Source of the DNA: Ferrimonas kyonanensis DSM 18153 | GTDB taxonomy: Bacteria > Pseudomonadota > Gammaproteobacteria > Enterobacterales > Shewanellaceae | Reading direction: 5' to 3' | Assembly: GCF_000425405.1 (NCBI RefSeq) | Contig: NZ_KE384364.1 | Location: 48,345 to 112,344 of the forward strand | DNA: 64,000 nucleotides | In this document: piece after piece, positions 39,926-63,031 of the stretch | How positions within the stretch are numbered: position 1 is the stretch's first letter | Layout of the letters: each line of letters opens with the position of its first letter | Translations under genes and position numbers: made by a program | The notes under the pieces: model-generated | What the model was told of the DNA's origin: nothing | The model's input: the letters and a program-made list of their open reading frames with translations, nothing else | Database searches by the model: none

Positions 39926-40306
39926 TTAGCGGCTCTGAGTCGGTACCCCCTGACCCACGCCTTTAATGGCGTTGTTCTGATCCAGGTACACCAACCGAGG
40001 CTTGTGGCTGGCCGCTTGCTGGTGGTCCATCTGCACATAGGCACAGATGATCAACCGATCTCCGGGGCTGGCTTTATGGGCCGCAGCGCCATTGACCGAG
40101 ATGATGCGCGACCCCCGCTCCGCTTCGATGGCATAGGTGGCAAAGCGCTCGCCATTGTCGACGTTGTACAACTCGATCTTCTCGTACTCCAGAATGCCGG
40201 CGGCCTCGAGAAAGTCCCGGTCGATGGCACAAGAGCCTTCGTATTCCAACTCGGCGTGGGTCACTCTGGCCTGGTGCAATTTGCCTTTCAGCATCTCTGT
40301 TTTCAT
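39926..40306 (-). CDS. panD: Aspartate 1-decarboxylase proenzyme
   Basis: PanD makes beta-alanine for pantothenate/CoA from aspartate. The 126-residue product self-cleaves between Gly24 and Ser25 ([10 protein letters not shown]), producing the pyruvoyl cofactor. The conserved ENVDNGERF-like ([12 protein letters not shown]) and NGAAAH segments are present. It stands alone here, not with panBC. Confidence 0.96.
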
Positions 40307-42445: not shown

Positions 42446-43387
42446 TTACGCCAGCAAAGCCCGAATCCGCGGACCGGTGTCCTGCAGGTACTGATCGGCT
42501 TGATCAAACACCCCCAGCATCTTGATAAAGCCGTGGATCACCCCTTCATAGAGGCGATACTCCACCGAGACCCCGGCGGCGGTCAGCTTGTCGGCATACA
42601 GGCGACTGTCGTCGCACAGCGGGTCGTACTCGGCACAGGCGATCAGGGTTGGCGGCAGATCCTCATGACTGCTGGCCCGCAGCGGTGAGCAATAGGGGTG
42701 CAAGCCATCGACCGGGCTGCGCAGGTAGTGATTCCAGTAATAGCTCATGCTGGCTCGCTGCAACAGGTAGCCTTCGCCGTGATTGATGGCCGACGGCGTA
42801 TCCCAGCCGTACTGCACCGCCGGGTAAACCAGGACCTGGCAGGCCAGACGCGGGCCATTTTCATCCCGCGCCCGCAAGGCCACGGCCGCCGCCAGGTTGC
42901 CGCCGGCACTGTCGCCAAACACACCGATGCGCCGTGAGTCCAGCCCCAGTTTTTGGGCATGCTCAAACACCCAGCAAGTGGCGGCATAGCAGTCGTCCAT
43001 GGGGGTCGGGAATTTGTGCTCAGGCGCCTTTTGATAGTTCACCGCCACCACCACCGCACCGGTGTGGTTGGCCAGGGCGCGACTGAAGCCGTCGTTGGTT
43101 TCAATATTGGACACCATCCAGCCACTGCCGTGGAAAAACACCAGCGCCGGCTGCAATTCGGCACTGGCGTCGCCCTCGAGCGGCCGGTAGATTCGAATAG
43201 GCAGATCGGCGCTGGGGCCGGGAATGAAACGATGTTCCACCGCCGCAACGGCGGCCGGCTCTCTGCAGGGACTGTCACTGGACAGCTCCAGATGACGGGC
43301 CTCTGCCGGGGTCATCTCTTCGTAGGCTTTGGCGCCGGAGTCACGCACCTGCTGCAAAAATTCATCGACCTTGGGATCTAATGGCAT
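42446..43387 (-). CDS. Alpha/beta hydrolase (HSL/Aes-type esterase)
   Basis: The 313-residue cytoplasmic esterase of the hormone-sensitive-lipase group has an oxyanion motif HGSGW (86-90; usually HGGG). The nucleophile is Ser160 in GDSAGGN, the acid probably Asp255 in AEYDPLCDD, and the base His285 in VIHGF. No signal peptide is present. It follows caiE after 229 nt containing a long hairpin and precedes the SMR exporter. Hydrolysis of acyl-carnitine or choline esters would fit the neighbourhood but cannot be read from the sequence. Confidence 0.88.
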   Translation of the reverse strand: MPLDPKVDEFLQQVRDSGAKAYEEMTPAEARHLELSSDSPCREPAAVAAVEHRFIPGPSADLPIRIYRPLEGDASAELQPALVFFHGSGWMVSNIETNDGFSRALANHTGAVVVAVNYQKAPEHKFPTPMDDCYAATCWVFEHAQKLGLDSRRIGVFGDSAGGNLAAAVALRARDENGPRLACQVLVYPAVQYGWDTPSAINHGEGYLLQRASMSYYWNHYLRSPVDGLHPYCSPLRASSHEDLPPTLIACAEYDPLCDDSRLYADKLTAAGVSVEYRLYEGVIHGFIKMLGVFDQADQYLQDTGPRIRALLA

Positions 43388-44442: not shown

Positions 44443-45300
44443 CTAACGCCACTCAACTAAACCAAAATTCAAATAACAACAGTCAGAGTCGTCTGCATCC
44501 ACTACTCTAAAATGGACACAATTATCACTCCATTTCCAAATTTGAGTCTTTACCCTCGCGCCTGGATAAAGCGCCTTGGTTAACCGGGTTTTAAATCGAG
44601 TTAACCGCTCCGGCTCGCCAGGAATCACACTTCGAATAATGTGTCGGCAGGCCACCCCGGTGGTGCTCACGCCGTGCAGATTCGGCTTGGGATGGCCAAA
44701 CTTCTGCGCATAGGCCCAGTCCACATGCTGAGGGTGATAATCACCGCTGAGGCGATACACCAGAGCCTGATTCAGTGGCACCTGTTCCGTCACTTCAAAG
44801 TCCGGCTGCCGCTCCGGAATTTCGACAATGTCGCGGGGCGCTTTCGGACCGCCAAAGCCGCCGTCATACAGGCAGCAATCCCAGCTTTCATTCGTGAACA
44901 GCAGGGTGCCATCCTGATTGCGGGTTTCACCGATGTGCTGGGCCAGACAGCCTCGCCCCTCACCGCGGTCGTACAACCCCTTCAGCAACACAGTGGTACT
45001 GAGTTTGCCGGTCACCAGTTCCGGGGTCAGTGGCCGATGTACCCGAAAATCGAAGCCCCAATGCAAAGAGCCGCCCCACTCAAAACCAAAGTCGATGGTT
45101 TTGGTGACTTCACTGTCCACAATTGGCATGGCACAGAAGGTGGGCAGCACTTTCAGATCTTGTTCATACACATACTCAAGGTCGGTCTTACCATCACTGC
45201 CGGCACCGCATCCCAGCCCCAGCAGCATCAAGTCCCTGACCGTATACTCATTAATAAAAGGCCCGTATGTCTGGCCTTGCATTTCCAGCTTTAACGCCAT
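44443..45300 (-). CDS. MaoC/hydratase-2-like acyl-CoA dehydratase in the cai operon
   Basis: The 285-residue double hot-dog protein resembles the hydratase 2 unit of peroxisomal multifunctional enzymes (DLEYVYEQDLKVLPTF near residues 40-55). The active-site stretch is VYRLSGDYHPQHVD (181-194) with Asp187 and His192 at the catalytic spacing, then LHGVSTTG (208-215). The family consensus has Asn where His189 stands. Start ATG 45300 has AAGGAG 7 nt upstream; a longer open frame was rejected. Enterobacterial cai operons lack this gene. It is expected to hydrate or dehydrate crotonobetainyl-CoA or a related CoA ester, with stereochemistry opposite to CaiD. A paralogue lies at 60541-61392. Confidence 0.85.
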   Translation of the reverse strand: MALKLEMQGQTYGPFINEYTVRDLMLLGLGCGAGSDGKTDLEYVYEQDLKVLPTFCAMPIVDSEVTKTIDFGFEWGGSLHWGFDFRVHRPLTPELVTGKLSTTVLLKGLYDRGEGRGCLAQHIGETRNQDGTLLFTNESWDCCLYDGGFGGPKAPRDIVEIPERQPDFEVTEQVPLNQALVYRLSGDYHPQHVDWAYAQKFGHPKPNLHGVSTTGVACRHIIRSVIPGEPERLTRFKTRLTKALYPGARVKTQIWKWSDNCVHFRVVDADDSDCCYLNFGLVEWR

Positions 45301-47918: not shown

Positions 47919-49151
47919 TTACGCCTCAGGCGCCTTGTCAACCTTGGCCAGACCCTTGTCTGCCAATTCTGTGATCGCTTCATCGCTGTAGCCGATATCA
48001 CGCAAAATGGCGGCGGTGTCCATGCCATGATCCGGCATGCCGCGCCAGATCTGACCCGGGTTGTTTTTAAACTTGGGCATCACATTGGGGCCCTTGCAGC
48101 GTTTGCCGTCGATGGTGTCCCATTCGGTAATGGACTCACGGGCAATGTACTGCGGGTTAGACTCCAGATCTTCGGCGCTCAACACCTTGGCACAGGCGAT
48201 CTTCAGTTCCGCGAAGCGCTTGCGCACCTCGGCCACGGAGCGGGCATTGATGTAGCTATCCAGGGCATCCTCGATCGCTTGACCATGAGGGCATTCGATG
48301 CGGTGAATCAGCTGAGTTCCTTCCGGCACGGCTTCGGTTCCCAGCAGGTGGCCCAGGCCAATGTCCTTGAACAGCTCTTCGATCTGGTTGGCACCGACCA
48401 TCTCCATCACGATGTAACCGTCTTCACACTTGTACAGACCGCAGCCAGCGTAGTAAGGGTCGCGGCCCTTGTACTGACGAGGCGCCATCTGACCACCGTT
48501 GAAGTAGTCCATCATGAAGTACTGGCCCATGCGCAACATCACCTCATACATGGCCACATCGATGCTCTCACCAACGCCGGTTTCCTTGGCCTTGTGGAAG
48601 GCTGCCAGGGCCGCGGTGGTCACGGTCATGCCGGAGAAGTAATCGGCGGTGTAAGGGAACGCCGACATCGGCTGATCCACATCGCCGTTCTGCATCAGAT
48701 AGCCGCTGAACGCCTGAGCAATGGTGTTGTACGCCGCCAGGTTGGTGTATTCATCGGTACCAAACTGACCAAAACCGGACAGGTGTGCCACAACCAGCTT
48801 AGGGTTGCGTTCCCACAGCAGCTCATCGGTAATGCCACGGCGAGCAAACGCTGGTCCTTTACTGGCTTCAATGAAGATGTCGGTGGTTTCCATCAGTTTC
48901 AGGAACGCATCACGGCCTTCGTCTTTAAAGATGTTCAAAGACAGCGCATGCAGGTTGCGTCGTGACAACTGAGGGTAGTTAGGCTGCACCCGAATGGTGT
49001 CGGCGTAGGCAACGTTCTCAATCCAGATCACTTCTGCGCCCCATTCCGCCAGCATCTGGCCTGCGAATGGACCGGCAATCTCGATACCGGAAAACACAAC
49101 CCGAACCCCGGAAAGAGGACCAAATTTCGGTGTGGCTAATGTCTGTGACAT
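47919..49151 (-). CDS. caiB: L-carnitine CoA-transferase CaiB
   Basis: CaiB is a class III (Frc-type) CoA transferase exchanging CoA between gamma-butyrobetainyl-CoA or crotonobetainyl-CoA and carnitine. The 410-residue product starts [19 protein letters not shown] after a short leader. The catalytic Asp170 lies in [10 protein letters not shown] (E. coli Asp169). It is part of caiTABCD-(hydratase)-E. A clear paralogue, CaiB2, is at 59204-60424. Confidence 0.97.
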
Positions 49152-52183: not shown

Positions 52184-53278
52184 TCAGAAATAATATTGAA
52201 GATTTATGTTGAAACGACCATTCCAGTCATCGCTGCTCTGCTCGAGGCCCAGGCTATTGCCACCCAGCCACAGAGTGTTCTTGGCATTGTAATAATCTAC
52301 ATAGACAAAGAAGCTCTTATAAGAGACAGAGAAACCGGTGGAGTTCAGGATTGAGTCATCGAAGCCCGCTTGATCCGGCTGCAATACACTGTAGTCGTTA
52401 TAAACCGTAATTGTGCCCCAGCTCATTGGGAACTTCTTCGCAATATTGGCGGTCAGGATTTTGCCTTCGCTGGCCACTTCATAGAAGCCGGTCACAGCAC
52501 CGATGCCAATTTTATTGGTATCGACACTGCCGTCGTCATACTGATCGAAGCTGTAGTCCAGGTACTGCAGTTGCAGACCCCAGTCGCCGTAGCTGAAATC
52601 ACCGTGTGCGGCCCAGGTCAGGGTGTCACCGGACTCATTCTCAACACTGTTGTACAGTTGTCCGTACTCCAGCGATGCGCCCAACAGCAATTCGTAACCT
52701 TCACCGCTGAGACGATAGGACTGACGCAGGTCGAAGGTATTACGCTCTTCGTTGTTGTAGGTGTTGTCACCGATGGTGCCCGAGCCCACGGTACCGGCGT
52801 AGTTCCGATAATCACTGCCGCTGTAAGTTGAGCCCTGGTGGAAAGAAAACTCAGTTTCCCATGGCCCTTTTACGTAGCTCAGGTTGGCACCCACACCCCA
52901 GTCATCTTCAAAACCCAGGTAGTAGTTCAGGCTGTACCACCAGCTGTGAGAAGCAAAGTTCTTGTTACCAAACGCCTTGTCAACCACACCCAGTTTGAAG
53001 GTCAGATCTTCGCTGGCATTCCAGTAAGCATAGGCGTACTTCAGGTAGTCGTAGGAATCGGTAAAGCGATACTCCGCCGTCACCCCGTAATCATCGAAGT
53101 TCTCGGAAAGTTTGATAGCGAACATATTGAAGTCAAAGTCGCCGGACGTGGCTTTTGACGTCTCACTATAATCTTTCCAATTGTAATTAACCCGAACATT
53201 ACCCGCTACCTCAACTGCTGAAACTGATTGGCTAACCAGTAATAAAGCAATGGGTAAAGACATTATTTTCTTATTCAT
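52184..53278 (-). CDS. Outer-membrane porin at the head of the cai operon
   Basis: The 364-residue beta-barrel protein has a signal peptide (MNKKIMSLPIALLLVSQSVSA) and alternating aromatic strands (WYSLNYYLGF, FFVYVDYYNA). It ends in LQYYF, the terminal Phe used for BAM recognition. The ATG at 53278 has a very strong ribosome site GGAGGTGA 5 nt upstream. I cannot assign it to a named porin. Its orientation and place upstream of caiT suggest a dedicated entry route for carnitine or related betaines; enterobacterial cai loci have none. Confidence 0.82.
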   Translation of the reverse strand: MNKKIMSLPIALLLVSQSVSAVEVAGNVRVNYNWKDYSETSKATSGDFDFNMFAIKLSENFDDYGVTAEYRFTDSYDYLKYAYAYWNASEDLTFKLGVVDKAFGNKNFASHSWWYSLNYYLGFEDDWGVGANLSYVKGPWETEFSFHQGSTYSGSDYRNYAGTVGSGTIGDNTYNNEERNTFDLRQSYRLSGEGYELLLGASLEYGQLYNSVENESGDTLTWAAHGDFSYGDWGLQLQYLDYSFDQYDDGSVDTNKIGIGAVTGFYEVASEGKILTANIAKKFPMSWGTITVYNDYSVLQPDQAGFDDSILNSTGFSVSYKSFFVYVDYYNAKNTLWLGGNSLGLEQSSDDWNGRFNINLQYYF

Positions 53279-53811
53279 CCAAATCACCTCCATTTTAGGT
53301 TGATTGCATTATGCATATCGGATTTCAGGAAAAAACAGCCCCAGGTCACACTTCCCCTTTAGCGAGTAAGGTTAATACGAGCATTTCTTGAAGCTGGTCA
53401 CACTTTGTCGGCCGATATTTATTTTTAGAGCAAAAATCACTCACCACAAAATGGCTCGAACGGTATTTTTTGTGACACAGATAACATTTGCACTGTTCGA
53501 ACGCCGGTTTCGATTGCTCTCAAATCGGGTACGGCGGTATTAATTAAAAACAGGAAACGGCAGCACACAAAAATGCAGGAAATGAATATTTTTACTCCCA
53601 CAAAAAACGGCAGTAAGTTTTCTTTTCACCGCTTTTTAAGTTTGCTTGTTTATACAGTGAGACTCACGAACAACATTCGAGATATAGCGCAAAAAACACC
53701 GCTATCCTCGCTATGAATTTCGGGTCACACACCTAAGGAAATAGCGCCAGGCGTTCACTGAATTGAACCCGGCTTAGCCTCAAACATTGCGAGAATCACA
53801 CTGGAGAGACA
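53279..53811. promoter_or_regulatory. Divergent regulatory region between the porin/cai arm and fixABCX
   Basis: These 533 nt hold no gene. They contain a near-consensus CRP site TGTGA-CACAGA-TAACA (53471-53486) and three direct copies of GGTCACAC (53344-53351, 53396-53403, 53723-53730), the first two exactly 52 bp apart. A perfect GTTCGAAC palindrome lies near 53496. In E. coli the caiT-fixA gap is controlled by CRP, FNR and CaiF; no caiF gene is in this window. Confidence 0.55.
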
Positions 53812-54585
53812 ATGAAAATTATTGCGTGTTACAAGCTGGTTCCTGAAGAGCAGGACATCGCCGTAACCTCCGACGGCGCCATCGATACCAGCAAAGCCTC
53901 CCTGAAAATCAGCCAATTTGATCTCAGCGCGGTAGAAGCGGCGGTACAACTGAAAGCCGCAGCCGGTGAAGGACACATCACCGCCCTGAGCATGGGCGGC
54001 AAAGCCCTGGAGAACCCAAAGGCCCGTAAGGACATTCTGTCTCGTGGCCCCGATGCCCTGACCATTGTGGTCGACGACAGCCTGCAACAATCGCTGCCCC
54101 ATCAAACCGCGCACGTATTGGCGGCTGCCGCGGCCAAGTCAGAGTTTGACCTGATTCTTTGCGGTGACGGCTCTGGCGACCTGTATGCCCAACAAGTGGG
54201 CTTGCTGCTAGGCGAAAAATTGGGCCTGCCCACCATCAACGGTGTTAGCAAGATTCTCTCCAGCGACGCCGGCATCCTGCGGGTTGAGCGAGAGTTGGAT
54301 GACGAGGTTGAGGTACTGGAAATTGCCCTGCCCGCCGTGGTCTCGGTTTCTGCCGACATTAACGAGCCTCAAATCCCATCCATGAAAGCGATTCTGGGTG
54401 CGGCCAAAAAGCCCACCACCACTCTGAGCCTGGCGGATCTGGCTCTGGAAGAGCAACCGGCAGTGGCTGAACTGGTCTCCATCAAGGCGCCGGAACAGCA
54501 ACAGCGCCAGCGTCACATCATTGAAGGCGACGGCGACGACCAAATCGCCGAATTCACCGAGCTACTGCGTAAAGCCGCCAACTAA
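53812..54585 (+). CDS. fixA: Electron transfer flavoprotein beta-type subunit FixA
   Basis: FixA is one half of the FixAB electron-transfer flavoprotein that feeds electrons to CaiA. The 257-residue product starts [15 protein letters not shown]. It has the ETF-beta adenine-nucleotide fold with [19 protein letters not shown] and the C-terminal recognition-loop region. GGAGAG lies 6-8 nt upstream of the ATG. It is the first gene of fixABCX, divergent from the porin-cai arm. Confidence 0.96.
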
Positions 54586-54601
54586 TTGAGAGGAATTGAG
54601 A

Positions 54602-55543
54602 ATGAGCAAACTGGCAAATGTATGGGTCTTCAGCGACGTTGACTCACGCCTACCGGAAGTGATCGCTGGCGGCTTGCAACTGGGTGACAAAGTCAGCGCC
54701 CTGGTACTGGGCAGCGATGCCGATGTCGCCATGGCTCACAGCCTTGGCGCCCACCAGGTATTCCACCTGGGAGAGAAACCAGACACCCGCATCGTCGAAG
54801 ACTACGTGGACACCATGATCCACGCTGCCGATGCCCATGGCCGCCCCGAACTGGTTCTGATCGGTGCAACCCGCCGTGGCAAAGCCATCGCCGCCAAACT
54901 CGGTGCCCGCCTGCAAGCCGGTGTCTTTAACGACGCCAGCGAACTGACGATTGCCGACGCCAAAGTAAAAGCCAAGCACATGGTCTACGGCGGTCTGGCA
55001 CTGGGTGAAGAAACCCTGTGCTCTCAAACCGCCATCGTGACCCTGGCCAACGGCGTTTTTGAACCTGCTGCAGCCACTGGTGCCAGCGGCGAAACCGTGG
55101 CTCTGGAGTTTGTTGCTCCGAAACACAGCATCACCTGTGTCGAGCGCCGCCAAAAAGCCGGTCAAGGCGTGGATCTGGGCAAAGCCAAGCGCGTCGTCGG
55201 TGTTGGCAGCGGCATCGTCTCTCAGGACAACCTGAAAAAAGCACAAGAGCTGGCTTCACTGCTGGGTGCTGAAATGGGCTGCAGCCGCCCCATCGCCGAA
55301 ACCGAGAAATGGATGGAGCGCGAACGCTACATCGGTGTCTCCGGCATCATGCTCAAGCCGGAACTGTACTTTGCCGTGGGCATCTCTGGTCAGATTCAAC
55401 ACATGGTGGGCGTCAACAGTGCCCAGACCATTGTGGCCATCAACAAAGACAAGAATGCACCGATTTTCCAGTACGCCGATTACGGCCTGGTGGGTGATGC
55501 CGGCAAGGTGATCCCAGCATTGATCGAGTCTCTCAACGCGTAA
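54602..55543 (+). CDS. fixB: Electron transfer flavoprotein alpha-type subunit FixB
   Basis: FixB is the FAD-binding alpha subunit of the ETF pair. The 313-residue product starts MSKLANVWVFSDVDSRLPE. The C-terminal FAD domain contains RVVGVGSGIVSQ, LGAEMGCSRPIAE, YIGVSGIMLKPELYFAVGISGQIQH (shown by its core GVSG...GISGQIQH) and AINKDKNAPIF. The ATG at 54602 has GAGAGGAA upstream; a TTG two codons earlier was ignored. Confidence 0.96.
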   Translation: MSKLANVWVFSDVDSRLPEVIAGGLQLGDKVSALVLGSDADVAMAHSLGAHQVFHLGEKPDTRIVEDYVDTMIHAADAHGRPELVLIGATRRGKAIAAKLGARLQAGVFNDASELTIADAKVKAKHMVYGGLALGEETLCSQTAIVTLANGVFEPAAATGASGETVALEFVAPKHSITCVERRQKAGQGVDLGKAKRVVGVGSGIVSQDNLKKAQELASLLGAEMGCSRPIAETEKWMERERYIGVSGIMLKPELYFAVGISGQIQHMVGVNSAQTIVAINKDKNAPIFQYADYGLVGDAGKVIPALIESLNA

Positions 55544-55615
55544 CCATTGTTCATTGTCAACATTTTGGCCCAAGGACGGGCCACGGACGACTCAACCTGA
55601 AAGAGTAACACTATT

Positions 55616-56905
55616 ATGTCTGAAGAAGCCTTTGACACCATCATCGTCGGAGCGGGGGTAGCCGGTTGCATCGCCGCCTACGTTCTGGCCAAGGGTGGAG
55701 CCGACGTCCTGGTCATCGAACGGGGCAACTACGCCGGCTCAAAAAACATGACCGGCGGCCGCCTCTATGGTCATAGCCTGGAGCGCGTCATTCCTGGCTT
55801 TGCCAGTGAAGCCCCCATCGAGCGCAAAGTCACCAAGGAGAAAGTGACCTTCCTGACCGACGACAGCGCCGTCACTCTCGACTACCACAACGGCCGCGAT
55901 CAAAACGCCCTGCAGGAATCCTACACCGTACTGCGCGGCGAGTTTGACCAGTGGCTGATGGCCAAGGCCGAAGAAGCCGGGGCTCAATTCATCACCGGCA
56001 TTCGCGTCGACAAGATTCTGACCGAAAATGGCAAAGTGCTGGGCGTGGAAGCCGATGGCGACGAACTCACCGCCAAAGCCGTCATCCTGGCCGAGGGGGT
56101 TAACCCGGTACTGGGCGAACAGCTCGGTATGGTCTCCAAGGTGAAAGCCAGTGCCATGGCCGTCGGTGCCAAAGAGCTGATTGAGCTCAGTGAAGCCCAG
56201 ATTCAGGACCGCTTCAACGTCAGTGGTGACGAAGGCGCTGCCTGGCTGTTTGCCGGTTCGCCCTCCAATGGTCTGATGGGTGGCGGATTCCTGTACACCA
56301 ACAAAACCACCGTCTCGCTCGGTGTCGTCTGTGGCCTTCATGACATCGGCACCTCCAGCAAAACCGTGCCGCAGATGCTGGAAGACTTCAAAAATCATCC
56401 AGCGGTTAAACCGTTGATCGAAGGCGGCAAGATGATCGAATACTCCGGTCACGTGGTTCCGGAAGCCGGCCTGCACATGGTACCGAAACTGGTGGATGAT
56501 GGCGTACTGATTGTCGGTGATGCCGCCGGTTTCTGTCTCAACGTTGGCTACACCGTTCGCGGCATGGACTTGGCCATCGCTTCCGGCGAAGCCGCCGCTC
56601 AAGCCATTTTGACCGCTCGCGAAAACAGCGATTTCTCCGCAGCTGGCCTGGGCAGTTACCAGACCCTGCTGGAAGACAGCTTTGTCATGAAAGATCTGAA
56701 GCTGTATCAGAAACTGCCCGCCTTTATGGAAAACCCGCGCATCTTTAACCAGTACCCCAAGATGGTCGCCGACATCATGCAAGAGATGTTTACCGTCGAT
56801 GGCAGCGACACGCCGCCGATTCGGAAAATGCTGATGAAGCACTGTAAAGAGGTGGGTTACCTCAATTTGATTAAAGACGGATTCAAAGGAGTCACGGCAC
56901 TATGA
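55616..56905 (+). CDS. fixC: ETF:quinone oxidoreductase-like flavoprotein FixC
   Basis: FixC is an FAD enzyme that with FixX passes electrons to FixAB. The 429-residue product has an N-terminal dinucleotide-binding motif GAGVAG (13-18) and the ERGNYAGSKNMTGGRLYG segment. A C-terminal FAD motif, VLIVGDAAGFCLNVGYTVRGMD, is recognised by GDAAGF. It is the GR2-type ETF-QO family member lacking its own ferredoxin domain, which is supplied by FixX. It overlaps fixX by 4 nt (ATGA). Confidence 0.96.
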   Translation: MSEEAFDTIIVGAGVAGCIAAYVLAKGGADVLVIERGNYAGSKNMTGGRLYGHSLERVIPGFASEAPIERKVTKEKVTFLTDDSAVTLDYHNGRDQNALQESYTVLRGEFDQWLMAKAEEAGAQFITGIRVDKILTENGKVLGVEADGDELTAKAVILAEGVNPVLGEQLGMVSKVKASAMAVGAKELIELSEAQIQDRFNVSGDEGAAWLFAGSPSNGLMGGGFLYTNKTTVSLGVVCGLHDIGTSSKTVPQMLEDFKNHPAVKPLIEGGKMIEYSGHVVPEAGLHMVPKLVDDGVLIVGDAAGFCLNVGYTVRGMDLAIASGEAAAQAILTARENSDFSAAGLGSYQTLLEDSFVMKDLKLYQKLPAFMENPRIFNQYPKMVADIMQEMFTVDGSDTPPIRKMLMKHCKEVGYLNLIKDGFKGVTAL

Positions 56906-57189
56906 GCAATTCAGTGAACGTCGACGTCAAACTGGGTGTGAACAAGTTCTATGTGGATGAAGGACACCCGCACATTGTCCTGAAAGACAACCCCGACATG
57001 AACGAGTTCAAAAAGCTGGTTAACGCCTGCCCGGCCGGTCTGTACAAGCTGGCTGACGACGGCACCCCCCGCTTCGACGCTGCCGGCTGTCTGGAATGTG
57101 GCACCTGCAAATTCCTGTGTGGTGACACCATTCTGGAAAAGTGGGAATACCCACGGGGCACATTCGGTATCGAGTACCGCTACGGCTAA
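56902..57189 (+). CDS. fixX: Ferredoxin-like protein FixX
   Basis: FixX is the small iron-sulfur partner of FixC. The 95-residue product has the cluster ligands Cys63, Cys66 and Cys69 (CLECGTC) plus Cys73 and Cys43 (NACPAGLY). It ends GTFGIEYRYG, the ETF-QO-like C terminus. Translation is coupled to fixC by overlap, and a terminator follows. Confidence 0.96.
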   Translation: MSNSVNVDVKLGVNKFYVDEGHPHIVLKDNPDMNEFKKLVNACPAGLYKLADDGTPRFDAAGCLECGTCKFLCGDTILEKWEYPRGTFGIEYRYG

Positions 57190-57563: not shown

Positions 57564-58880
57564 ATGAAAAATGCGAAAAAATTCGATGACATGGAGTTTA
57601 CCCCACTCCACAGAAAGATCATGCTCTGGGGCAGTGGCGGCCCCTTCCTAGACGGTTATATCCTGGTCATCATCGGCATCGCTCTGGAACAATTGATTCC
57701 ACAGATGCAACTGGACTCCAACTGGATTGGATTGGTGGGCGCATCGACTCTGGTCGGTTTGTTCGTCGGCACCGCCCTGTTCGGCTACATCGCTGATCTG
57801 TTCGGCCGCAAGTTGATGTTTCTGATCGACATCATCGCCATCGGCGCCCTGTCCATCGCCACCGTTTTTGTCTCCTCCCCGATGGAACTGGTGATCATGC
57901 GCTTTCTCATCGGCGTGGTCATTGGTGCCGATTATCCCATTGCCACCTCTATGGTTGCCGAATTTTCTCCGACCCGACACCGAGCGTTCACCATGGGGTT
58001 CATCGCCCTGATGTGGTACGTCGGCGCCACCTGTGCCAACGCCGTCGGCTATATGCTGTATGACCTTGAAGATGGCTGGCGCTGGATGCTGGGCAGCGGT
58101 GTCATTCCCTGCCTGGTCATTCTCCTGGGCCGCTTCCATCTGCCGGAATCCCCCCGTTGGCTAATGCAAAAGGGCCGAATCGAAGAGTGCAAACAGGTGA
58201 TGGCCACCTACTTTGGCAAAGAGATCGCCCTGGATGTGGAGGAGAAAAAGCCCACCCGCTACCGGGATATTTTTGAAAAACGAAACCTCAGAATGGTGAT
58301 ATTTACCGGCACCATCTGGAGCTGCCAAATCATTCCCATGTTTGCCATTTATACCTTTGGGCCGCAAATTATCGGCTTATTGGGACTTCACGATGGCAAG
58401 GACGCGGCGTTAGGAAACATTCTGATCAGCGCCTTCTTTATTGCCGGCTGCGTTCCCGCCATGTACTGGCTCAACTCCATCGGCCGCCGGCCACTGCTGA
58501 TAGGCAGTTTCGCCATCATGACTGCCGCCCTGGCGGTATTGGGCATCGTTCCCAACCCCGGAATCGGCCTGGTGATCGCCGCCTTTGGCCTGTACGCCTT
58601 TTTCTCCGGCGGCCCCGGAATTCTGCAATGGCTGTACCCCAATGAACTGTTCCCCACCGAGATACGCGCCTCCGCCGTCGGTGCGGTCATGGCCTTCAGT
58701 CGCATCGGCACCATTCTGTCCACCTATGCTCTGCCGCTGTTTATGGCCAAGTACGGCGTGTCCATGACCATGCTGATGGGGGCGGTCGTCTCCCTCGTTG
58801 GCTTCTTTATTTCGGTCACCATGGCACCGGAAACCCGCGGGTTGGCCTTGAATGAAACCAGCTCGGCAAAATTTGGATAA
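57564..58880 (+). CDS. yaaU: MFS transporter YaaU
   Basis: The 438-residue major-facilitator protein of the sugar-porter-like group has 12 predicted helices. The start KKFDDMEFTPLHRKIMLWGSGGPFLDGY (key GSGGPFLDGY) matches E. coli YaaU, as do GYIADLFGRKLMFLID, ADYPIATSM and LPESPRWL. The gene also follows fixX in E. coli, which supports orthology. The substrate is unknown; linkage to cai/fix in distant species suggests a carnitine-related solute or a pathway product. A bulged hairpin at 58980-59011 lies downstream. Confidence 0.92.
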   Translation: MKNAKKFDDMEFTPLHRKIMLWGSGGPFLDGYILVIIGIALEQLIPQMQLDSNWIGLVGASTLVGLFVGTALFGYIADLFGRKLMFLIDIIAIGALSIATVFVSSPMELVIMRFLIGVVIGADYPIATSMVAEFSPTRHRAFTMGFIALMWYVGATCANAVGYMLYDLEDGWRWMLGSGVIPCLVILLGRFHLPESPRWLMQKGRIEECKQVMATYFGKEIALDVEEKKPTRYRDIFEKRNLRMVIFTGTIWSCQIIPMFAIYTFGPQIIGLLGLHDGKDAALGNILISAFFIAGCVPAMYWLNSIGRRPLLIGSFAIMTAALAVLGIVPNPGIGLVIAAFGLYAFFSGGPGILQWLYPNELFPTEIRASAVGAVMAFSRIGTILSTYALPLFMAKYGVSMTMLMGAVVSLVGFFISVTMAPETRGLALNETSSAKFG

Positions 58881-59203
58881 GGTATCTCTATGCCAATGAA
58901 TAAAATAAACAGACTTTATAAATAGAGTGGTTATGTAAATAATCAAAGCTCATTTATTTATAGCAAATTAACTTATAATAGGCCTGCCGGATACACTGAC
59001 CGGACAGGCCTCTCTCGCCTCTAAAACAATAAAGAAACAAAGAGCACAAATACCTACAACAAATAAAAATAAAATTACCAAACAAAAAACGTGAACCAAA
59101 GTGTATTTTTATTAGTCATAGACAGGTAATGTCCACTCTCGAAATTAGTTGAAAATAGAACAAAACCTTTATTTAACTCACAGACGAATAAGGACGACGC
59201 GCT
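58881..59203. other. Intergenic region yaaU-caiB2 with a strong hairpin
   Basis: These 323 nt hold no gene and are markedly AT-rich. A hairpin AGGCCTG-CCGG/CCGG-A-CAGGCCT (58980-59011, 9-nt loop, one bulged A) lies 100 nt after yaaU. It lacks a U-tract and may mark the 3' end of yaaU mRNA. A TTGAAA-17-TTTAAC pair about 40-60 nt before caiB2 is only a weak promoter candidate. AAGGAC lies 9 nt before the caiB2 ATG. Confidence 0.5.
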
Positions 59204-60424
59204 ATGACTGATAAAATTGAAACGCCTAAATTCGGCCCACTCACCGGTGTTCGAGTGGTCTTTTCCGCCATGGAGATTGCCGGTCCTTTTCCCGCCCAGA
59301 TGATGGCCGAATGGGGCGCCGAAGTGATCTGGATAGAAAACGTTGCCTACGCCGATACCATTCGCGTACAGGAATTCTACAGCCAGTTTTCGCGTCGTAA
59401 CCTTCACAGTCTGTGCTTAAACATCTTTTCCGACGACGGCAAAGCGGCTTTCCTGAAACTGATCGAAACCGCAGATGTCTTTATCGAATCCAGCAAAGGG
59501 CCGGCGTTCAGTCGCCGCGGCATCACCGACGACTTGTTGTGGCAACACAATCCCGCGCTGGTGATCGCCCACCTGTCCGGCTACGGCCAATGGGGCGAAG
59601 ACAAATACATTAACCTGCCTTCCTATGACCACATTGCCGGTGCCTTCAGTGGTTTTCTGATTCAAAACGGTGAAAAAGACCAACCCATTCCCCCCTTTCC
59701 CTATACCGGTGATTACATCAGCGGCATGACGGTACTGAGTTCAGTGCTGGCCGCCTTGTACAACGCCAAGGCCACCGGCAAAGGGGAGAGCATCGACGTT
59801 GCCATGTACGAAGCCCTGCTGCGAGTCGGTCAGTACTACATGGTCGACTATTTCAATAACGGCAAACTCTACCCCAGATCAACACGCGGCAAGGATCCGA
59901 CTCAGGTCGGCTGTGGCGTATACAAGTGCAACGACGGTTACATCGTCATGGACCTGGTGGGCTGGAAACAGATTCAGGGAATGCTGACGGTCATGGGCGA
60001 AGATCATCTGCTGGGCAGCGATGACTACCCAGAAGGGATTCAGGGGATTCGGGCCGACAGCCCGGCAGCCGACTACCTGGAGGAAAAACTGGATCAGTTC
60101 TTCGCTGGCCGCAGTATCGAAGAGTGTGAAGCCCTGTTTGCCGAACTGGTGGTTGCCGGGACCCGGGTCCTGACCATCCCGGAGCTGGAGTCACACCCAC
60201 ATTACGTCGCCCGGAACAATTTCATTGAATGGCAGACTCAGGACGGCGATACCGTCAAAGGCCTCAATGTCACTCCGAAATTTAAAAACAACCCGGGTAA
60301 AGTCTGGCGCCCCATGCCCAAACGCGGCATGGACTCGCGCAGCATCATGTCCGAATTGGGTTACTCCGACAGCGACATCGCCTCTCTGATCGAACAGGGG
60401 CTGTTAAAAACCGACGACCAGTAA
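59204..60424 (+). CDS. Second CaiB-like class III CoA-transferase (CaiB2)
   Basis: The 406-residue protein is clearly paralogous to CaiB at 47919-49151. It shares [35 protein letters not shown] and [14 protein letters not shown], and ends in a similar [16 protein letters not shown]. The catalytic Asp170 is kept in [10 protein letters not shown]. It should transfer CoA to carnitine or a structurally close betaine. It heads a three-gene module with a MaoC-like protein and a BCCT transporter, preceded by yaaU. No second caiA, caiC or caiD accompanies it, so it must rely on the first cluster or act on other CoA donors. Confidence 0.92.
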
Positions 60425-60540
60425 ACCGGTTTCACTTTCGCAATGCAGTCGGCCAGGGACGGCCACCCCTTGATGGCATCAACGGGGCTGCGGACGTTAC
60501 GACTTCAGGAGCCCTGACTCCTATTGAGAGAAGATGAATT

Positions 60541-61392
60541 ATGGCTATCAAACTCGAAACTATCGGCCAGACCTACGGCCCGTATCACACCGACTATGAC
60601 ATCACCCAGTTGATCGTGTTTGCCCTGGGCAGTGGCGCCGCCAGCGACGGTAAAACCGACCTGGACTGGGCCTACGAACAAGATCTGCGGATTAACCCTG
60701 TGTATCTCGCCACCATCGTCGCCTCCGATAAGGTCACCGCCGACATCGATTTTGGCTTTGACTGGGCCGGCATTCTCCATTGGGGAATCGACATGCAGAT
60801 TCACAAACCGCTGCTGGAAACCAGCGGAACCCTGTCCACCAACATCACCCTGAATGCCCTGTATGACCGGGGTGAAGGACGGGGCTGCCTGGCTCAGAAG
60901 ATTGCCGAAACCTACGACCAGCATGGCGATAAACTGCTGACCATCGATAACTGGGACTGCGCCATCTACGATGGTGGTTTCGGGGGCGAAAAAGCCCCCA
61001 GAGACATCGTCGAGATCCCCGACCGCCAGCCGGACTATGAGATCGACGAAACCCTGAGCCTCAACCAGCCGGTGATCTTCCGCCTGCTGGGCAACTATCA
61101 CCCTCTGCACGTTGACTGGGACTACGCCCAGAAGTACGGCTATGACCGGCCCATCCACATGGCGCTGGCGGTGTCAGGAATGGCCTGTCGCCACATCTGC
61201 AATACCCTGCTGGAGCGCCAGCCACAACGGTTGACCCGGTTCAAGCTGCGCTTCACCGGCGTCAGCTATCCCGGCATGACGGTTACCACCCAGATCTGGC
61301 GCTGGGACGATCACTCGGTTCGATTCCGGGTGATCGATAAAAACAACCCAGACACCGTGCTGCTTAATTTTGCCCTGGCAGAATGGCAGTGA
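60541..61392 (+). CDS. Second MaoC/hydratase-2-like protein, catalytic Asp replaced
   Basis: The 283-residue paralogue of the hydratase at 44443-45300 is alike over its full length (QTYGPY, DGKTDLDWAYEQDLR, NWDCAIYDGGFGGEKAPRDIVEIP). The active-site stretch reads IFRLLGNYHPLHVDW: Asn185 (codon AAC) replaces the catalytic Asp, while His190 stays. The following LHG is changed to IHM (205-207). It may be inactive as a hydratase, act as a binding or regulatory subunit, or do altered chemistry. It lies 116 nt after caiB2 and 82 nt before the second transporter. Confidence 0.85.
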   Translation: MAIKLETIGQTYGPYHTDYDITQLIVFALGSGAASDGKTDLDWAYEQDLRINPVYLATIVASDKVTADIDFGFDWAGILHWGIDMQIHKPLLETSGTLSTNITLNALYDRGEGRGCLAQKIAETYDQHGDKLLTIDNWDCAIYDGGFGGEKAPRDIVEIPDRQPDYEIDETLSLNQPVIFRLLGNYHPLHVDWDYAQKYGYDRPIHMALAVSGMACRHICNTLLERQPQRLTRFKLRFTGVSYPGMTVTTQIWRWDDHSVRFRVIDKNNPDTVLLNFALAEWQ

Positions 61393-61474
61393 TCCCCAGG
61401 GGCGGGAGTCACTCCCCGCCCCAGTTCTGCCCGACCGGGCACATTGTCCCCCTAACCCGCTTTGGAGAGCAGCA

Positions 61475-63031
61475 GTGAGTACTATTCCGTCTACGGAGGC
61501 ACGCCTCGGCTATGGTGCGTCATCCCTTTTGCCGAATATCGACACCTTCAAGTTTTTTGGCGCCTTTACTCTGGTGTTGCTGGGCACAGTGCCCATGCTG
61601 CTCTACCCAGACAGTTCAAAAACCCTGATTTTCTCCCTGTTCCAATTCATTACCCAGGAACTGGGCTGGCTGTACATCATGGCCGGGATCGGCGCCTTCC
61701 TGTGGTGCCTGTGGCTGGCTTTCGGCCCCTATGGCAACAAGGTATTGGGCAGTACCCCCGAATACTCCGACTACAGCTGGGTGGCGATGCTGGTGTGTGC
61801 CGGTGTCGGCTCCGGCATCATGTATGGCAGCATGCTCGACTGGGCCCACTTGTCTAACCTGGGTATCAACGGCACCGAAGTCGGCAGTGCCCAGGCCAAG
61901 GAGTGGGCCTCGGCCTACGCCATGTTCCACTGGGGGCCCATCGCCTGGGCCATGTACGCCACCCTGGCGATTCCCATCGCCTACTCGTTTCACGTGAAGA
62001 AAACACCGGTACTGAACATCTCCCAGTGCTGCCATTTTGTACTTGGGGATCGGGTTAACGGCCCGGTGGGCAAGGTCATCGACATTCTGTTTATGATTGG
62101 CCTCATTGGTGGCGCCGCCACCTCATTGAGCCTGGGCGCCCCGGTGATTGCCGCCGGCATCAGTGTCCTGACCGGCATTCCCAATGGCCTGCAGCTGGAA
62201 GTGCTGGTGCTGTTTTTGGTCACCGCGGTGTTCGGGATGAGTGCCTTTTTTGGCATTAAGCGCGGCCTGCGGGCCATGTCCGACATTAACGTGGTGCTGT
62301 CGGTGGCACTGCTGGCGTTTGTGCTGCTGACCGGGCCGACGGTCTTCACCATGGAGATGGGGGTCAGCACCCTGGGGCGGGTACTGTCGAATTTCGTTGC
62401 CATGGCCACCAATATGGATCCCATTGAAAACTGCGGCCTGATCTCCAACTGGACCGTGTTTTACTGGGCCTGGTGGGCCTCGTTTGCACCGTTTATGTCT
62501 ATTTTTATTGCCAAAATATCCCGCGGCCGCACCGTCAAAGCCACCATACTGGTGACCCTGGTGGCCGCCTCCAGCGGCTGTGCCGCCTTCTACATCATCT
62601 TCGGCAACTTTGGATTGCACCTGCAGCTGGCCGGTCAGTTGGACGTGGCCTCCCTGGTTACCCAGTTCAAAGGCGGCGAGGTGATCGTACGAATGGCCGA
62701 GTTTCTGCCGTTAACGCCGCTGTTTATTGGCACCTTCTCACTGGTGTGTGGCATCTTCCTGGCCACCACTTATGATGCCGTCAGCTACGCCCTGTCCGCG
62801 ACCACCACCGCCCACCTGACTCCGGACCAGGAGCCGGCCCGTTGGAATCGTCTGTTCTGGGCCTTCGTATTAAGCCTGCTGCCGCTGGGCATTATGGTGG
62901 TCAACGGCCCGCTTGAGGTACTGCAGACCGCCACCATCATTTCGGGACTGCCGATCATGGGGGTCGTCACCCTGGGAATCGTCTCCTTTGTCAAAGAAGT
63001 GAAGGCCACCGGCTGGGCGCAATCTCGCTGA
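61475..63031 (+). CDS. Second BCCT-family betaine/carnitine transporter (CaiT2)
   Basis: The 518-residue, 12-helix BCCT protein is related to CaiT. It keeps the aromatic box start FYWAWW, the FHWGP helix and Met341 aligned with CaiT Met331. At the position of CaiT Arg262, however, it has Asn272 (SDINVVLS versus SDLRSYLS), as in sodium-coupled BCCT carriers. CaiT Tyr327 is replaced by Phe337, and the following residues read APF as in BetP-type proteins. Na+-coupled net uptake is therefore more likely than simple exchange. The start is GTG 61475 with GGAG 9 nt upstream; a longer frame overlapping the previous gene was rejected. Confidence 0.9.
   Translation: MSTIPSTEARLGYGASSLLPNIDTFKFFGAFTLVLLGTVPMLLYPDSSKTLIFSLFQFITQELGWLYIMAGIGAFLWCLWLAFGPYGNKVLGSTPEYSDYSWVAMLVCAGVGSGIMYGSMLDWAHLSNLGINGTEVGSAQAKEWASAYAMFHWGPIAWAMYATLAIPIAYSFHVKKTPVLNISQCCHFVLGDRVNGPVGKVIDILFMIGLIGGAATSLSLGAPVIAAGISVLTGIPNGLQLEVLVLFLVTAVFGMSAFFGIKRGLRAMSDINVVLSVALLAFVLLTGPTVFTMEMGVSTLGRVLSNFVAMATNMDPIENCGLISNWTVFYWAWWASFAPFMSIFIAKISRGRTVKATILVTLVAASSGCAAFYIIFGNFGLHLQLAGQLDVASLVTQFKGGEVIVRMAEFLPLTPLFIGTFSLVCGIFLATTYDAVSYALSATTTAHLTPDQEPARWNRLFWAFVLSLLPLGIMVVNGPLEVLQTATIISGLPIMGVVTLGIVSFVKEVKATGWAQSR

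Follow-up and report, generated by a model that had tools for sequence, protein, structure and literature searches.

The caiTABCDE-fixABCX-yaaU genes of Escherichia coli serve the anaerobic reduction of L-carnitine, and the same gene set in the same order, yaaU included, makes up the main locus of the stretch analysed here, 64,000 nucleotides of the Ferrimonas kyonanensis DSM 18153 genome (contig NZ_KE384364.1, positions 48,345 to 112,344), which we refer to as the window. The window differs from the E. coli MG1655 region, which has no MaoC protein, no second CaiB and no BCCT transporter after yaaU, in carrying a MaoC gene in its main operon (maoC1), a BCCT gene after yaaU and, between these last two, a pair of genes for a second coenzyme A (CoA)-transferase and a second MaoC-type protein, caiB2 and maoC2. 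Our reading of this pair, put forward tentatively, is that of a front-end cassette of carnitine-type anaerobic metabolism that is exchanged horizontally and in which CaiB2 would load CoA onto a betaine and MaoC2 would change the resulting ester.

Other described systems share parts of this arrangement. The gamma-butyrobetaine (bbu) cluster of Emergencia timonensis likewise encodes class III CoA-transferases, a betaine transporter and an enzyme resembling acyl-CoA dehydrogenases; as described, that cluster also has a thioesterase and bbuA, a flavoenzyme that eliminates trimethylamine, with MaoC unmentioned in the description (PMC8364193). With the hydratase 2/MaoC enzymes (human MFE-2, 1s9c; 3khp; Phytophthora capsici, 3kh8) MaoC2 has the full-length fold and the catalytic His in common, but its catalytic Asp is replaced and further changes are fixed. 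In the dehydration direction, the His of this fold is described as placed for the alpha proton and the Asp as contacting the 3-hydroxyl (PMC11321319). The same account describes ChsH1-ChsH2, where a MaoC protein lacking the Asp stands beside one that has it, as MaoC2 does beside MaoC1; ChsH2, however, also lacks the His that MaoC2 keeps, and MaoC1 and MaoC2 are both of full double-hot-dog length (PMC11321319).

Results

caiB2 (59204..60424, plus strand) is an intact open reading frame whose product scores 633.4 bits against the NCBIfam L-carnitine CoA-transferase model NF002914 (cut-off 413) and whose Asp170 aligns with the catalytic Asp of E. coli CaiB. By this score and the alignment, CaiB2 belongs to the CaiB family of class III CoA-transferases; among solved structures its closest relative is CaiB, the crotonobetainyl-CoA:carnitine CoA-transferase (1xa3 and 1xk6; 582 bits), and both have the catalytic Asp. 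It differs from CaiB in lying on a separate branch and at 14 positions where 21 or more of 22 non-actinobacterial CaiB rows agree. Identity to the CaiB of the main operon (47919..49151, minus strand; assigned by NCBIfam and tree) is 60%, and CaiB2 groups at 100/98 with a Campylobacterales CaiB2, beside but outside a 100/99 clade of E. coli, Shewanella and Ferrimonas CaiB. A sequence-only reading of the window had called CaiB2 diverged and its catalytic Asp intact, and both statements held; a recent duplication of caiB was rejected as its origin on the strength of the 60% identity and the separate branch. The first CaiB tree included locus L003 and a long Adlercreutzia row, both left out of the second and third, and one Shewanella-group CaiB with an in-frame TAG (G075:C63:42594-43814) was not used. 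Other CaiB-like proteins at E<=0.001 in the window's genome amount to a single 27% relative; no genome-wide search was made for second copies of caiC or caiD.

maoC2 (60541..61392, plus strand) is an intact frame whose product matches no NCBIfam family and carries the Pfam MaoC and MFE-2 N domains of a double hot-dog fold. A predicted model (mean predicted local distance difference test score 81, from a 22-row alignment, with residues 37-59 partly below 50) reaches a template modelling score of 0.87 to 1s9c and to 3khp. The catalytic Asp-His dyad is incomplete, with Asn185 in place of the Asp and His190 retained. All 45 MaoC1 rows of our alignment, some of them near-duplicates, have the Asp, the three MaoC2 have Asn, Cys and Ile there, and the His is present in all 48 rows; a further 13 sites are invariant in the 45 MaoC1 and altered in all three MaoC2, one common new residue having been adopted at 12 of them. 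The published triad also has a Gly, but this position does not separate the two groups, since it is split in both (Ala, Ala and Gly in MaoC2; Gly in 24 and Ala in 21 MaoC1 rows). The three MaoC2, from the window, an uncultured Campylobacterales (76% identity) and Endozoicomonas elysicola (64%), form a 100/100 clade in a tree of 31 of the 48 rows. Identities at the three codon positions between the window and the Campylobacterales genome are 0.735/0.890/0.307 for maoC2 and 0.754/0.842/0.293 for caiB2, and on this pattern maoC2 is shown to be under strong constraint. By domains, model and alignment, then, MaoC2 is a protein of the hydratase-2 fold that has lost the Asp, kept the His and been constrained in three lineages, which bears out the earlier suggestion of a hydratase-like protein changed at a key residue. 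In a homologous hydratase a D194N change leaves 2.6 U/mg (PMC3823801), the wild type having about 61 U/mg as computed from a reported 91.2 being about 1.5 times wild type. Given this loss of activity and the conserved His-only state, MaoC2 is unlikely to be a good hydratase, and it is probably not an ordinary one; it might instead eliminate groups that depart without protonation, catalyse a proton shift or act as a partner with no catalysis of its own.

Relatives of the pair were sought by scanning 84,980 species genomes with short exact patterns from the MaoC alignment, which gave 44 loci, all with further cai-type genes; an earlier scan with MaoC2 alone returned no locus, weak evidence of absence as it used exact peptides. 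When the order (394 genomes) and the class (369 genomes) were sampled evenly, the window's genome alone showed a MaoC match at E<=1e-40; a sample of the phylum (378 genomes) contained one other CaiB relative at E<=1e-80. The complete pair recurs in the Campylobacterales genome (71% identity for CaiB2, 76% for MaoC2), in the order caiT-caiA-caiB-caiC-maoC1-caiB2-maoC2-sodium:solute symporter-panD. In E. elysicola the order is caiT-caiA-caiB-caiC-maoC2-maoC1-fixA-fixB-symporter-fixC-fixX-caiE, so that MaoC2 is accompanied by MaoC1 in all three cai loci and directly adjacent to it in this one. The sodium:solute symporter (60-70% mutual identity) was noted in Campylobacterota and Endozoicomonas cai loci with or without MaoC2 (L119:9078-10685, L120:11894-13492 and L135:9057-10652).

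The family of E. elysicola offers a natural comparison, as two of its 37 genomes have a MaoC match at E<=1e-40 and the second, G1210, holds the same locus with MaoC1 only and no maoC2. Most proteins of the two loci are nearly identical (CaiT 99.6%, CaiA 98.7%, MaoC1 99.6%, FixA 99.2%, FixB 98.4% over 187 of 315 residues aligned, symporter 98.7%, FixC 100%, CaiE 99.5%), whereas CaiB and CaiC are only 62.0% and 67.8% identical. At the DNA level, in 200-base steps, the flanks are at 0.90-1.00, dropping again at the far right end, and a sharply bounded block with caiB, caiC and maoC2, from about 4.7 to 8.9 kb of the E. elysicola locus (L120), is at 0.54-0.73, two steps within maoC2 having no counterpart in G1210 at all. 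We take this to mean that maoC2 is exchanged along with the CoA-loading enzymes, while the transporters, the reductase and MaoC1 stay the same. The G1210 CaiB falls within the ordinary CaiB clade (100/99) and that of E. elysicola outside it, joining CaiB2 weakly (78/68); the two CaiC are sisters (100/99).

Within the genus Ferrimonas the same separation of the pair from its neighbours is seen. The sequence-only reading had described yaaU, caiB2, maoC2 and the BCCT gene as one module beside a complete cai/fix locus. The four frames were found as described, and all are intact (57564-58880, 59204-60424, 60541-61392 and one ending at 63031), but the module boundaries did not stand. yaaU, for a YaaU-like MFS transporter (57564..58880, plus strand; intact), also comes after fixX in the E. 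coli MG1655 genome, in the other four Ferrimonas genomes with cai genes and in all eight Shewanella fix loci read (of 18 Shewanella-group genomes with MaoC, 16 were taken as 20-kb regions, G089 and G112 entering as L130 and L125, and fix-side flanks were read for 8 of the 16). CaiB is found at E<=1e-60 in 5 of 14 genomes of the genus, and a BCCT gene is present in all five; in the four other than the window's genome it stands directly after yaaU, its product is 76-97% identical to that of the window, and caiB2 and maoC2 are missing. Among the nine genomes without CaiB, two have a BCCT match of 43-45% and seven have none at E<=1e-120. Because yaaU and the BCCT gene occur in relatives without the pair, we regard them as residents of the locus and rejected their inclusion in the module; yaaU belongs to the fix side, outside the cassette.

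A survey of 152 genomes of the family found CaiB (E<=1e-100) in 32 and MaoC (E<=1e-20) in 20, and the window's genome is the only one of the 152 with two CaiB or two MaoC. Compared with F. sediminum (G009), the nearest genome of the genus, the segment 59135..61426 (plus strand) stands out between flanks that are 89-91% identical, and F. sediminum has 231 different bases in its place. The start of these bases resembles the caiB2 leader to a degree equalled by 1 of 500 shuffles when compared with the leader and by 6 of 200 when compared with the whole segment, a likeness compatible with either insertion or loss of the segment. Several origins were considered and set aside: a repeated mobile element as the content of the F. 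sediminum gap (170 of the gap's bases are single-copy in that genome and were not found in the four other genomes searched), foreign base composition (G+C of 0.546 and 0.579, against 0.569 for the window) and a plasmid, as no close relative was found among 72,556 plasmid records. The best plasmid matches were a 46% MaoC on a Curtobacterium plasmid (E limit 1e-10) and a 62% CaiB in records labelled E. coli (E limit 1e-60). On the Curtobacterium plasmid (NZ_CP126272.1, 83 kb) relatives of MaoC (46%) and CaiB (45%) lie side by side at 65746-69414, and plasmids can therefore carry such loci. The earlier reading was to be given up if its module were absent or decaying in all close relatives; absence is what the genus and family show, but decay was not borne out, as the frames are intact, the codon-position pattern is preserved and the genes are conserved in two distant lineages.

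Several resident genes bear on how the pair might work. maoC1 (44443..45300, minus strand; Pfam and alignment) belongs to the main cai operon and encodes the MaoC paralogue with the hydratase Asp. Proteins of its type occur in Shewanella, Ferrimonas, Enterobacillus, Endozoicomonas, Campylobacterota, Bacillota, Actinomycetota and a Dormiibacterota metagenome-assembled genome. Among the 44 MaoC loci, 13 (Shewanella and Ferrimonas) have a CaiD of at least 84% identity, 7 have only a 38-40% crotonase and 24, some of them cut off by contig ends, show no crotonase in the stretches covered; CaiD matches in eight whole genomes outside Shewanella and Ferrimonas did not exceed 41%. On gene content, MaoC1 probably takes the place of CaiD in many cai loci across several phyla, a role for which we found no description among open-licence PMC papers judged by their listings.

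A second reductase had been thought missing, but this was an artefact of the window's edge. caiA2 lies after the ABC-F gene, 1.3 kb beyond the window end (L054:9613-10749, or 65269-66405 in window numbering), scores 687 bits against the NCBIfam crotonobetainyl-CoA dehydrogenase model (cut-off 540), is 83% identical to CaiA and has counterparts of 85-98% identity in the other four Ferrimonas genomes that carry cai genes.

The BCCT transporter (61475..63031, plus strand; profile and structure-chain comparison) is a DddT-like resident of the locus and a possible supplier of substrate. Its likelier start is the GTG at 61475, with GGAGAG just upstream, rather than the TTG at 61370 of the open reading frame list. 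The closest solved relative is DddT (21ff), a symporter of dimethylsulfoniopropionate (DMSP), at 447 bits (43% identity over 491 columns), against 231 for CaiT and 163 for BetP, and the protein stays below the NCBIfam NF002887 CaiT cut-off (361.9 versus 541 bits). At the CaiT residues that presumably stand in for sodium, Met331 is kept and Arg262 is replaced by Asn. At the DddT sites, with row L061 left out of the alignment, 9 of 11 listed sodium-site residues are identical (5 of 6 in Na1, 4 of 5 in Na2); 4 of 12 substrate-site residues are changed (A99G, W105G, Y112H and Y324F) and 8 are identical. The statement that the transporter has changed at key residues was therefore correct. In DddT itself W105A and Y112F are reported to lose activity and Y324A to behave like wild type, and neither of two tested metagenomic homologues transported DMSP (PMC13270143). 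The largely retained sodium-site residues and the loss of Arg262 suggest sodium symport rather than antiport, and the protein can be given neither a role in L-carnitine exchange nor one in DMSP uptake.

A GC-rich hairpin 3' of maoC2 (61399..61422, plus strand), within the segment missing from F. sediminum, folds at -19.8 kcal/mol, a value equalled by 5 of 200 shuffles; it has no following T run and was not among the terminator-like sites of our scan. Candidate FNR and CRP sites upstream of caiB2 had scores reached by 49 and 123 of 200 shuffles, and promoter- and terminator-like sites between 58800 and 63200 were not in excess of shuffles (2 versus 2.7 and 5 versus 4.6). In the gap between the porin-like gene and fixA there is a CRP-like site, TGTGACACAGATAACA (53471-53486, plus strand), that matches 9 of the 10 consensus bases, a score which 2 of 200 shuffles attain.

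As for the remaining layout, the main cai genes run on the minus strand as caiT-caiA-caiB-caiC-caiD-maoC1-caiE-hydrolase, and the fix side runs on the plus strand as fixABCX (53812..57189; open reading frames, the presumed electron supply) and yaaU, followed by caiB2, maoC2, BCCT and an ABC-F ATPase that we take to be ettA-like. The alpha/beta hydrolase (Abhydrolase_3; 42446-43387, minus strand) closes the cai operon in Ferrimonas and Shewanella loci, a more distant one is found in many actinobacterial cai loci, and the enzyme may be an acylcarnitine esterase. A porin-like protein that matches no Pfam family (52184-53278, minus strand) precedes caiT in the cai-bearing Ferrimonas genomes, and a 36-39% relative follows yaaU in 6 of the 8 Shewanella loci read. 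panD, for aspartate decarboxylase (39926-40306, minus strand), is a neighbour of the cai locus in all five cai-bearing Ferrimonas genomes, the window's included, as well as in two Campylobacterota loci (L119:10727-11110 and L135:11591-11968), the former also with a GTP cyclohydrolase II gene; such genes perhaps relate to CoA and flavin supply.

Discussion

In the cassette that we tentatively propose, CaiB2 would move CoA from an end product of the pathway, such as gamma-butyrobetainyl-CoA, to a carnitine-like betaine, and MaoC2 would act on the CoA ester with His190 as base and without an Asp for a leaving hydroxyl, either eliminating a group that leaves unprotonated (a neutral amine, a sulfide or a carboxylate) or carrying out a His-only proton shift. 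CaiA or CaiA2 would then reduce the resulting enoyl-CoA, FixABCX supplying the electrons. The earlier idea of a different CoA-loading front end that feeds the first pathway fits the position of CaiB2 beside MaoC2 with the rest shared; the single four-gene unit does not, and D-carnitine is an unlikely substrate. We acknowledge that several points weigh against our proposal. The pair may serve the same substrate as CaiB. The E. elysicola CaiB, the weak support of whose grouping with CaiB2 is given above, is equally close (67%) to the CaiB of Enterobacillus, whose locus shows no MaoC2; it is also the single CaiB of its genome at E<=1e-60, so that the swapped block must serve whatever the whole cai locus does. 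Only three MaoC2 are known, the scan having used short exact patterns, and no regulatory site upstream of caiB2 is better than shuffles.

Alternatively, MaoC2 could be a partner without catalysis of its own, joined in a heteromer to MaoC1 (or CaiB2), whose pocket it would shape or regulate, and CaiB2 may pair with CaiB. The constant company of MaoC1 and MaoC2 in all three loci speaks for this, as do the report that ChsH2, which has no dyad, partners ChsH1 (PMC11321319) and the finding that BbuB and BbuC are both required (PMC8364193). We nonetheless consider it unlikely, as the E. elysicola MaoC1 is nearly identical to that of G1210, where MaoC2 is missing, and thus shows no adaptation to a partner, which argues against an obligate one; in addition, the catalytic His is kept in all three MaoC2, at a position described as Tyr in ChsH2 (PMC11321319), and CaiB2 retains an Asp of its own. 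It is also doubtful that the pair is simply redundant, with CaiB2 acting on the L-carnitine, crotonobetaine and gamma-butyrobetaine esters that CaiB handles and with MaoC2 as a poor or accessory hydratase. The NCBIfam score of CaiB2, well above the cut-off, and E. elysicola, which has ordinary CaiT and no CaiB other than that of the swapped block, are in favour; the retention of both CaiB and CaiB2 in the window's genome and in the Campylobacterales genome, and the new residues that MaoC2 has fixed in common across distant lineages, are not.

Respiration of DMSP (or beta-alanine betaine) would have the BCCT protein import the substrate, CaiB2 form the CoA ester, MaoC2 release dimethyl sulfide (or trimethylamine) and CaiA2 reduce the acryloyl-CoA. 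DddT being the closest solved BCCT relative, with most sodium-site residues kept, agrees with such a route, and a neutral leaving group would presumably need no Asp. We nevertheless regard it as highly unlikely, because W105 and Y112, whose replacement is reported to inactivate DddT, are among the changed substrate-site residues, and even the two tested homologues are described as not transporting DMSP (PMC13270143); moreover, the BCCT gene is present in four genomes without the pair, and no relative of it was found at the two other MaoC2 loci. By naming rules, the (R)-3-hydroxyacyl geometry corresponds to D-carnitine, which is where a role of MaoC2 as D-carnitinyl-CoA dehydratase would find its support, in that MaoC hydratases are reported to yield (R)-3-hydroxyacyl-CoA (PMC3823801). 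This last possibility is very remote, since MaoC2 lacks the Asp on which the dehydration of carnitinyl-CoA in this fold would depend and MaoC1, which has kept it, would be the better candidate.

Rather speculatively, MaoC2 could even found a new enzyme class of the hydratase-2 fold, a His-only eliminase that takes a group with no need of protonation off a betaine- or sulfonium-type acyl-CoA; caiB2-maoC2 would then bring a new electron acceptor to carnitine-type respiration, with the cassette spreading between phyla, an outcome that we consider improbable. The two Endozoicomonas-family loci, which differ almost only in the front end, constitute a natural comparison for such questions. Carnitine-type loci carry out the anaerobic conversion of animal and marine betaines, and gamma-butyrobetaine, one of their products, is reported to feed trimethylamine formation in the gut (PMC8364193). 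Our results suggest that the CoA-loading front end of these loci can be exchanged and that their hydratase comes in two unrelated forms, CaiD and MaoC1, and the conserved MaoC2 branch points to a chemistry that is hardly textbook.

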